A stretch of DNA of 64,000 nucleotides, taken from the NCBI GenBank assembly GCA_009782215.1, contig WRKO01000009.1, forward strand, positions 1 to 64,000, read 5' to 3'. Below the pieces are notes generated by a model, which did no database searches, was not told the origin of the DNA, and saw only the letters and a list, made by a program, of their open reading frames with translations. Origin of the DNA: Oscillospiraceae bacterium (lineage in GTDB: Bacteria > Bacillota > Clostridia > Oscillospirales > UBA929). Below are positions 1,609-19,104 of the stretch, piece by piece. The translations under genes and the position numbers were made by a program. Within the stretch, counting starts at the first letter, position 1. The number at the start of each line of letters is the position of its first letter.

Positions 1609-1621
1609 CCGGATACAACAA

Positions 1622-1648
1622 AAGGGGCTGACGTTGCGTCAGCCCCTT
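1622..1648. terminator. Bidirectional intrinsic terminator
   Basis: An 11-bp perfect stem (1622-1632 with 1638-1648) and a 5-base loop lie between the convergent lipoprotein gene and spo0A. It is flanked by an A run on one side and pyrimidine-rich sequence on the other, so it can serve both strands. Confidence 0.8.
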
Positions 1649-1652
1649 CGGG

Positions 1653-2432
1653 TTATCTCTGTTCGGCTTTGAGCTGTAACTGAAGCCTGTCGGCAATCAT
1701 GGCGATGAATTCGGAGTTGGTGGGCTTGCCTTTGGCGTTGCTGACGGTGTAGCCGAAGATGGATTGCAGCGTCTCAAGGTCGCCCCGATCCCACGCCACC
1801 TCAATGGCGTGGCGGATGGCGCGTTCCACGCGGGAGGGGGTGGTGCGGAAGGTTTCGGCGACGCTGGGATAGAGGATTTTGGTCACGGCGCCGATGACCG
1901 AAGGGTCGTGAACGGCGGTGACGATGGCCGTTCTGACGTATTGATAACCCTTGATGTGCGCCGGTATGCCGATTTCGTGGATAATCTCGGTGACCCGGCT
2001 TTCAAGACTGAGGGACGATTTGTCAATCACGGGCGGAATGAGGTGCTGGGAGGTCTCTCCGCCGAAGGTTCGGATGCGGTCGATGAGGGAGCCGATGTCG
2101 CACGGCTTGACCATGACAAACTGCGCGCCCAAGGCGATGGCTTCGCGCGTCACGCCGTCGGTGGCCAGCCCGGTGAGAACCAGAACGCGCGGACGCGACA
2201 TGGGGTGGTGGCGGTTGAATTGCTTGAGGACTTCGATGCCGTCCATGCGGGGCAGCATGATTTCCAGTAGGACGACGTCCGGCTTGAGGGAGTCGGACAT
2301 TTTGCACGCGTCCACTCCGTCGCGGGCAAAACCGATGATTTCGAGGCGGGGGTCGGATTCGATGCTCTCGGCGAGCAGCGCTGTGAAGTCCGCGTTGCTG
2401 TCGGCGATGAGGATTCTAATCTTTTTCTGCAT
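1653..2432 (-). CDS. spo0A: Spo0A sporulation master regulator with altered receiver residues
   Basis: This 259-residue protein has the Spo0A architecture: a CheY-like receiver (about 1-125) and the Spo0A-specific DNA-binding domain (about 150-259), including [15 protein letters not shown] and [15 protein letters not shown], nearly identical to the family. The ATG at 2432 has GGAGA upstream. Unusually, the position of the phosphorylated Asp (Asp56 in Bacillus subtilis) is Glu57 in [11 protein letters not shown], and the acidic pocket reads ADSN instead of ADDN, so Ser12 replaces one metal-binding Asp. The switch Thr (VLTG) and Lys (VKPCD) are kept. The family normally acts after phosphorelay phosphorylation. 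This protein may be phosphorylation-independent, but that is inference. spoIVB, a common neighbour, is not adjacent here. Confidence 0.95.
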
Positions 2433-2663
2433 AACGGTTCTCCTTTATTACGTTTTTCACGGCATAGCCACATCGCAATATGTAAACTCCTGCCGGGGCT
2501 TGACAATCAATACGATAACACAGAATAATTCACAATGCAAGAGCAAAAATAGAAAAATATGAAGAATCGTTCGTTGTAAAGTGATGATAAACGCGATAAT
2601 ACGACAAATGTGGTTGCAAAAATATAGAATTATGTTTATCCGTGTCGATAAATCCGCGAAAAA

Positions 2664-2689
2664 ATCCCCCGCCCGTCAAGGCGGGGGAT
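2664..2689 (-). terminator. Intrinsic terminator of the small gene at 2705-3106
   Basis: A 10-bp GC-rich perfect stem (2664-2673 with 2680-2689) and a 6-base loop are followed on the minus strand by five T residues. Confidence 0.85.
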
Positions 2690-2704: not shown

Positions 2705-3106
2705 TCAGTCGGTGGGTATCATAGCGGTGTGGATGCTGACTTTAAGTATAATCATTTCGGCGTGGAAGACACGCAGGCAGTCGGTGAGCGACGCGCTGTC
2801 CGAACGGGCGACCGCTTCGGAAATATCGTCAAGGAGCGGAGGGGCGTCCTTGACGAGCAGCGACGTCAAAAGGACTCGAACCTCCTCCAGCTCTTTGAGG
2901 AAGGCTTTTCTGGTGTCGCTGTCGTACAGCACGACCGAGGCTGTGTAGTCGCGCAGATAATGGTCGGCGTCAACCGACACCTTTGCCAGCGCGACCCAAA
3001 AATCATCGCGGGAGGGAAAATTCTGAATGGCCCTCACCGCGTCGAACAATTCTATTTTAGACAGGACAGACATATCAAAACGCACGGCATCAATCACCTT
3101 GTTCAT
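2705..3106 (-). CDS. Hypothetical protein, 133 residues
   Basis: I do not recognise this protein. It is soluble, probably helical and acidic, with no signal peptide or membrane segment. The ATG at 3106 (MNKVIDAVRF) has AGAAAGAAG seven bases upstream and is preferred over a TTG five codons earlier. Leu- and Val-rich stretches (LLTSLLVK; the C-terminal MIILKVSIHTAMI) suggest a small helical domain. It has its own strong terminator and is divergent from rplS, so it is probably a single-gene transcript. The calm codon use, the start site and the terminator support it being a real gene. Confidence 0.6.
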   Translation of the reverse strand: MNKVIDAVRFDMSVLSKIELFDAVRAIQNFPSRDDFWVALAKVSVDADHYLRDYTASVVLYDSDTRKAFLKELEEVRVLLTSLLVKDAPPLLDDISEAVARSDSASLTDCLRVFHAEMIILKVSIHTAMIPTD

Positions 3107-3150
3107 TTTCTTCTTTCTCAAAGTCTATCACACTTCGGGCAAGCGCGCAA

Positions 3151-18535: not shown

Positions 18536-19104
18536 AAGCCGTATTTATCAAATCGGCGGCACGGGAGGATCAGTTTATCCGGGACGGGAAGAAAGCCGTT
18601 GTGTTTGCGGGGCGTTCCAATGTGGGCAAAAGCTCGGTCATCAATCTGCTTACGGGGCGCAAAGGCTTGGCGAAGATTGGCAATACACCGGGGAAAACGT
18701 CTCATGTAAACTATTTTCTGATAGACGATGCGTATTACTTTGTCGATTTGCCCGGTTATGGGTACGCGAAGGTTTCCCATTCCGAAAAGCTGCGCTGGGC
18801 GGCGCTGCTGGAAGCCTTTTTCCGCGTCCCGGACGCCGTTACGCTGGGGGTATTGGTAACGGACGCGCGGCATAAGCCGACAGCGCTGGACAGCCAGATG
18901 GCGCAGCTTTTCCGGCAGACAGGCAAGCCGTTCATTACGCTGGCGAACAAGGCTGACAAGGTGAAAACTTCACAGTTGTCGAGTGCGCTGGCGCTGATTA
19001 AAGAAACCCTTGCTGTAGACAGTGTTTTGCCCGTTTCCTCCGTGAAGGGAGCCGGCAAGAAGGAGGTTTGGCATGAAATTGGTATCCGAATGTCTGGGGA
19101 TTAA
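18532..19104 (+). CDS. ysxC: Ribosome biogenesis GTP-binding protein YsxC/EngB
   Basis: A 190-residue GTPase for 50S subunit assembly. G1 GRSNVGKSS, G2 GNTPGKTSH, G3 DLPGYGYAK, G4 NKAD and the G5 region VSSVKG are all present. Its start overlaps the lon stop and its end overlaps lysA by 32 bases, so the lysA ribosome site lies inside this gene. Confidence 0.96.
   Translation: MKAVFIKSAAREDQFIRDGKKAVVFAGRSNVGKSSVINLLTGRKGLAKIGNTPGKTSHVNYFLIDDAYYFVDLPGYGYAKVSHSEKLRWAALLEAFFRVPDAVTLGVLVTDARHKPTALDSQMAQLFRQTGKPFITLANKADKVKTSQLSSALALIKETLAVDSVLPVSSVKGAGKKEVWHEIGIRMSGD

Follow-up and report, generated by a model that had tools for sequence, protein, structure and literature searches.

A spo0A gene with a substituted receiver

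The window, by which we mean the whole 64,000-nucleotide stretch of DNA analysed here, belongs to a genome (G000) of 2.36 Mb in 54 contigs that is 93% complete. On its minus strand it carries a spo0A gene (1653..2432) encoding 259 amino acids in which, as in the canonical Spo0A of Bacillus and Clostridioides, a receiver domain (residues 7-121; 2070..2414, minus strand; Pfam Response_reg, 68 bits) precedes a Spo0A_C DNA-binding domain (residues 147-250; 1683..1994, minus strand; Pfam Spo0A_C, 149.7 bits along the full profile, with matches to PDB 1fc3 and 1lq1). The protein scores 305 bits against TIGR02875 (Spo0A), where the cut-off, also exceeded by all 5 relatives tested, is 200, and its best matches in the PDB are the solved DNA-binding and receiver domains of Spo0A. 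The receiver is predicted to adopt its usual fold with confidence (pLDDT block means of 82-97 over residues 1-120); the solved structure closest to the predicted receiver is 1qmp, the phosphorylated Spo0A receiver, which we do not take as a sign of the protein's state.

What distinguishes the window protein from its canonical counterparts is a pair of receiver residues. Codon 57 (2262..2264, minus strand) is GAA and places Glu at the phospho-acceptor position, and codon 12 (2397..2399, minus strand) is AGC and places Ser where the second metal-binding acid (DD2) should be. An earlier note on this DNA had read both substitutions from the bases, together with an intact switch Thr, Lys and DNA-binding domain, and these readings hold up: alignment to 1dz3, a solved Spo0A receiver, places Glu57 on the acceptor Asp and 'iliadsna' on 'vciaddnr', no alignment places a different Asp at the acceptor position, and Asp11, the switch Thr87 (2172..2174, minus strand), the conserved Lys109 (2106..2108, minus strand) and the DNA-binding domain are all retained, as judged from the receiver alignment, the Pfam Spo0A_C match and the PDB alignments. 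The canonical trio of acceptor Asp and two metal-binding acids is therefore broken at E57 and S12, and the protein has what defines an aspartate-less receiver or pseudo-receiver: the acceptor Asp is gone and the receiver fold is retained. Judged by its sequence, it is a Spo0A by descent and domains and not a canonical phospho-activated Spo0A. As a within-genome control, seven of the 25 other receiver matches in G000 were aligned, and Asp occupies the acceptor column in all seven. Receiver-level matches apart, no second full-length or canonical Spo0A was found in G000; the Spo0A_C domain is matched there once, as it is in the congener G004, versus four matches in G001 and three each in G002 and G003. 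The extra Spo0A_C genes of the congeners include paralogues with a truncated receiver or none, in G001 (L024) and G003 (L023).

Upstream of spo0A lies a truncated gene, X (2705..3121, minus strand), whose 138 amino acids comprise a helical N-terminal domain only, as seen by comparison with congeners. Three signals read from the sequence frame spo0A: a terminator-like GC-rich hairpin with a T run between X and spo0A (2659..2687, minus strand), a putative sigma-A-like promoter, TTGCAT-17-TATCGT (2512..2540, minus strand), whose counterpart in G002 and G003 occupies the same position with TATGGT as its -10 element, and a further terminator-like GC-rich hairpin followed by TTTT just past spo0A (1620..1648, minus strand). 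X was considered as an operon partner of spo0A, a role weakened by the first two of these signals, which make co-transcription of the two genes unlikely. The leader from the promoter-like site to the start codon of spo0A (2433-2514, minus strand) is similar in the window, G002 and G003; a 5' leader hairpin folds no better than shuffled sequence in the window (z of +1.1, with -1.6 and -2.5 in congeners). Taking TGTCGAA as the 0A box consensus, which is our assumption, and allowing at most one mismatch, putative 0A boxes 5' of spo0A are exact in G003 and G004 and carry one mismatch in the window, G001, G002 and G007; we gave these sites no weight. A relaxed-threshold Rfam search around spo0A returned three weak matches, none near its gathering score.

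The substitutions are shared by close relatives

Two aberrant residues in a single genome that is probably metagenome-assembled (as inferred from its 54 contigs and its relatives) may simply reflect a sequencing or assembly error, an explanation that, as the earlier note pointed out, Asp in other isolates of the same species would favour. Spo0A is present in four of the five congener genomes searched (G001, G002, G003 and G004), with no match in G005 (89% complete). All three close congeners have Glu at the acceptor position, and position 12 is Ser in G003 (81% identity), Ser in G002 (77%) and Cys in G004 (73%); Asp occurs in one distant congener, G001 (57% identity), where position 12 is Asn. 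Because Glu is paired with Ser or Cys at position 12 in three further genomes, we reject error as an explanation and regard its probability as negligible. The nearest named loci, from the best 80 of 411 retrieved with two patterns, one of which demanded Ser or Asp at DD2, are from the Oscillospiraceae MAGs Cx337_bin19 (81%) and Nt197P3bin64 (77%), labels that we take to denote termite-gut samples. Their Spo0A proteins are identical to those of G003 and G002, respectively; note that L055 (equal to L011) and L056 (equal to L012) are thus two of the Glu congeners under their public names and not additional cases.

Across the 6 pairs that can be formed from G000, G002, G003 and G004, the four genus members with Glu, receiver dN/dS is 0.09-0.13, and in the 5 unsaturated pairs that of the DNA-binding domain is 0.03-0.09, ratios that are rough as synonymous sites are nearly saturated. 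At a dN/dS of about 0.1, purifying selection is acting on the receiver. Elsewhere in the family, the acceptor position is Asp in genus g2 (L015-L018), where both acids are present, and Glu in g4 (L019) and g5 (L020-L022), whose residues at position 12 are Gly, Asn, Lys and Lys.

Acceptor and DD2 residues across Oscillospirales-type receivers

Among 176 distinct Spo0A receiver rows from the window's order and the closest named matches, a sample that is not random (the genome list was ranked by DNA-binding-domain score, part of the matches were listed, 363 of 394 genomes were positive, and the named loci carry the pattern bias given above), the acceptor residue is Asp in 131, Glu in 37, Asn in 5, Gly in 2 and Trp in 1, and all five canonical residues are present in 63. 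Glu receivers largely retain Lys (35/37) and Ser/Thr (35/37). DD2 is non-acidic in 35 of the 37 Glu receivers versus 62 of the 131 Asp receivers, an association with a Fisher p of 4e-8 when kinship is ignored. An independent-pairs test, which respects kinship, is not significant for the same association because DD2 losses are few (5 changes) and deep.

The latter count comes from a tree of 116 distinct rows, obtained from 125 tabulated rows by removing L023, L024 and L027 and collapsing six pairs of identical rows, in which the acceptor is Asp in 82, Glu in 29, Asn in 4 and Gly in 1. On this quick tree, which has SH-aLRT support only and excludes the three key columns, Glu requires 13 changes, at least 6 of them forced on starred branches, and acidic versus non-acidic DD2 requires the 5 just mentioned. 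One starred branch holds 65 rows, most of which bear the names Oscillospiraceae, Ruminococcaceae or Clostridia and whose printed labels show no acidic DD2; Sporobacter termitidis DSM 10068 (L103) sits in this branch and has kept the acceptor Asp, with Ala at DD2. Another 60 Spo0A genes, hand-picked, one per genome, from rank 31 down of the Spo0A_C match list, have Asp (49), Glu (8), Asn (1), Gly (1) or Trp (1) at the acceptor position, and DD2 is acidic in 36 of the 60.

A separate observation concerns position 111 of the window protein, two residues past the conserved Lys, where a Cys (in the motif KPC) is found in 76 of the 100 receivers whose DD2 is non-acidic and in 6 of the 76 whose DD2 is acidic, uncorrected for kinship. 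A redox or partner-contact feature is possible.

Proposed phosphorylation independence and its precedents

How might a Spo0A with these residues work? From the missing residues we infer a loss of phosphotransfer, and phosphotransfer of the ordinary kind is very unlikely on the window protein. Ser12, with the second metal-binding acid lost, would cripple the Mg2+-dependent reaction, and Glu57 would occupy the place of phospho-Asp and, with Thr87 and Lys109, keep the receiver active-like. Spo0A would then dimerise and bind 0A boxes with no kinase needed, and control of sporulation would move to the quantity of Spo0A or to partner proteins.

The combination has an engineered parallel in PDB entry 2jb9, titled 'PhoB response regulator receiver domain constitutively-active double mutant D10A and D53E'. 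By BLASTP, PhoB D53 pairs with E57 and PhoB E9-D10 with D11-S12, and going by the title the same two positions are changed, one to a non-acidic residue and the other to Glu; the PhoB variant, however, is engineered, carries Ala and belongs to the OmpR/PhoB family, whereas the window case is natural, carries Ser and is a Spo0A. According to one paper on aspartate-less receivers, D-to-E alone is often insufficient and other changes are needed as well, with CheY, PhoB and Spo0A named (PMC4395418, citing 1991 Spo0A work). Because such a further change is needed and is present in 2jb9, Glu57 plus Ser12 is a pair with a working precedent, and the second substitution may be what lets Glu57 work.

Several points caution against reading too much into Glu itself. 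Glu is not the sole route to constitutive activity since 2jba, PhoB D53A and Y102C, is likewise titled constitutively active with no acid at the site. In ChxR, one of the aspartate-less receivers or pseudo-receivers, activity survived replacement of the Glu (PMC4395418), and phosphomimicry has been disproved for some pseudo-receivers (PMC12632262). The window Spo0A resembles such receivers in that Glu is the most frequent substitute for their acceptor Asp (PMC4395418, PMC12632262). As about 80% of pseudo-receivers have no acid at DD2 (PMC12632262), finding DD2 lost alongside Glu does not point specifically to phosphomimicry. It also counts against our preferred reading that many Asp receivers (the 62/131 above) lack DD2 too.

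Could phosphorylation persist after all, on Glu57 or on another residue near the pocket? Two-component kinases are plentiful, with 27 HisKA matches in G000, compared with 23 in G003 and 18 in G007, which is of the Asp type, and it has been demonstrated that Glu can be phosphorylated (PMC4395418). The same paper, however, is aware of no bacterial signalling system in which Glu is phosphorylated; moreover, the window protein also lacks the second metal-binding acid, and no substitute Asp aligns at the site, so that we consider persisting phosphorylation highly improbable. A Spo0B-like domain (SPOB_a) has one match in G000 (93% complete), below the cut-off (22.3 versus 28.1 bits) and inside a 522-aa frame.

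The reading we prefer, held tentatively and at slightly less than even chance, is that the window encodes a natural phosphorylation-independent Spo0A pseudo-receiver, locked in an active-like state and controlled through the amount of Spo0A or through partners; what would replace phosphorylation as the regulator, whether amount or partner proteins, is speculative. The earlier note had proposed that this Spo0A may be constitutively active, or regulated without the phosphorelay, a real change to sporulation control: the receiver change stands, is shared in the genus and recurs in the order, and constitutive activity is suggested only by analogy to PhoB D10A+D53E. For the Glu-type group of uncultured clostridia as a whole, the receiver residues suggest that spore control probably no longer runs via Spo0A phosphorylation. 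A broader scenario, which we hold to be somewhat less likely than not, is that a broad branch of Oscillospirales-type clostridia repeatedly uncoupled Spo0A from phosphorylation by a single route, losing DD2 first and then exchanging the acceptor Asp for Glu, thereby recreating PhoB D10A+D53E; the sporulation decision would then be set by Spo0A abundance or partners and not by a phosphorelay or orphan kinases.

Spo0A and Glu-type pseudo-receivers are each known already; what appears new is their combination in a natural Spo0A. We found no description of a natural Spo0A without the acceptor Asp in the literature searched, where most subscription papers were outside reach and absence is not proof. 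A 2024 review of clostridial sporulation states that all endospore formers start sporulation via Spo0A phosphorylated on the conserved Asp (PMC11210211). Of two papers on aspartate-less receivers, one touches on Spo0A only in the D-to-E remark and one reference (PMC4395418), and the other, a 2025 review on pseudo-receivers, does not mention it (PMC12632262). The latter does describe C. difficile CmrT, which is likewise a clostridial pseudo-receiver regulator but belongs to the OmpR family, shares its operon with a kinase and a receiver protein of its own and is not the sporulation master regulator (PMC12632262). If the phosphorylation step is missing in a recurrent set of clostridia, the search for their 'sporulation kinases' would be misdirected, and predicting sporulation from the presence of Spo0A and kinases would require checking the receiver residues. 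The receivers also offer a natural before-and-after protein set for studying how a response regulator turns phosphorylation-independent.

Sporulation genes in the Glu-type genomes

A different explanation is that the receiver is a decaying relic, with sporulation being lost in the lineage and Spo0A inactive or on its way out. Some of what we see in G000 fits this idea: sigG is interrupted, X is truncated, and no SpoIIAB over cut-off and no sigF-like gene were found in this 93% complete assembly. The other four Spo0A-bearing congeners (G001-G004) have SpoIIAB with an adjoining sigma gene, which is probably sigF, and the absence of the pair from G000 may be either an assembly gap or a real loss. 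The gene that we name sigG from its sequence is interrupted at the same codons (PMI/IGEI) in G000 and G001, where the split was read from loci L188 and L189, and is in one piece and full length in G002-G004. In G000 its halves (L183:1121-1453 and 18545-19066, within G000:C1:104000-123900) are separated by about 17 kb, an interval that encodes a large serine recombinase (L183:16154-17539) close to the second of them; the 9-base string CCGATGATT occurs at both junctions, and the 3' end diverges as well past EIGIS. Skin-type elements are known in sigK, and the arrangement in G000 resembles them. With neither sigF nor spoIIAB detected and sigG in two parts, the ability of G000 to form spores looks uncertain; by gene content, G002-G004 look more complete.

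Spo0A and spore genes are also decoupled in parts of the family. Spo0A is present and a SpoIVA match absent in G009, G010 and G015, and G012 has kept SpoIVA, SpoIIE and SpoIVB with a weak Spo0A_C match, so that the two are not always tied; note that some family genomes in this comparison are just 64-68% complete.

Other observations argue against decay. The open reading frame of spo0A is intact and its receiver is constrained, as described above. G002-G004 combine a full-length sigG and a probable sigF beside spoIIAB with SpoIIE and SpoIVB matches. Spo0A is missing from G013 (97% complete), and so are SpoIVA, SpoIIE and SpoIVB. G000 itself has matches to SpoIVA (700 bits), SpoIIE (365 bits) and SpoIVB (344 bits), and all three are matched in each of the Glu members G000, G002, G003 and G004, SpoIVB over the cut-off and SpoIIE below it, as in all 17 genomes searched; the SpoIVA match of G004 is a contig-edge fragment below the cut-off. 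We therefore regard a decaying relic as improbable. Adjacency of SpoIVB to spo0A proved uninformative as a marker: a single probe matched 24 of the 92 loci, and their flanks were uneven. In G001, G012 and G017, the last ~85 residues of SpoIVA match a separate frame of 632-652 aa; the main match ends near residue 411-417 in G001 and G012, and in G017 the first part ends at the contig end.

Gene X as a candidate partner

The receiver may also be gated and not locked on, with a phosphorylatable receiver protein (X, for example) or a small molecule binding it and controlling dimerisation, a mode already suggested for other pseudo-receivers. The window's X corresponds to the first half of a protein of ~255 aa sited identically in three Glu congeners (48-61% identity), in which the helical N-terminal half is followed by a canonical receiver with Asp. 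In a search of 93 loci, the window X has matches at E <1 only in L001 (its own), L011 = L055, L012 = L056 and L013, all of them beside spo0A in the four Glu genus members, and the best E in the remaining 87 is 1.1. Heterodimers of WhiI and BldM provide a precedent for gating by a partner (PMC12632262).

Against this stand the terminator-like hairpin that divides X from spo0A and the promoter-like site of the latter, the loss of the receiver half of X in the window (it is intact in the three congeners), and the fact that synteny is expected among close relatives anyway. Moreover, among the matches listed, homologues with the N-terminal half of X occur in G014 (full length) and G016 (N-terminal half), both Glu-type genomes, and that of G014 is located away from spo0A. 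On balance gating seems unlikely, though less so than decay, and X is a candidate Spo0A partner in the congeners, not in G000. The N-terminal domain of the window X matches no Pfam family over cut-off, and the predicted model of intact X, built from three sequences, has a mean pLDDT of 71; its structure matches are filled by the receiver half, so that the structure search barely probed the helical domain.

In G014, the X homologue overlaps the end of an HPt-like phosphotransfer gene (L269:861-1499 and 1486-2247). The latter has no NCBIfam match at 1e-5, and we presume from its AHGLKG-type motif that it encodes an HPt phosphotransfer protein. Going by this gene arrangement, X may elsewhere form part of a phosphorelay module.
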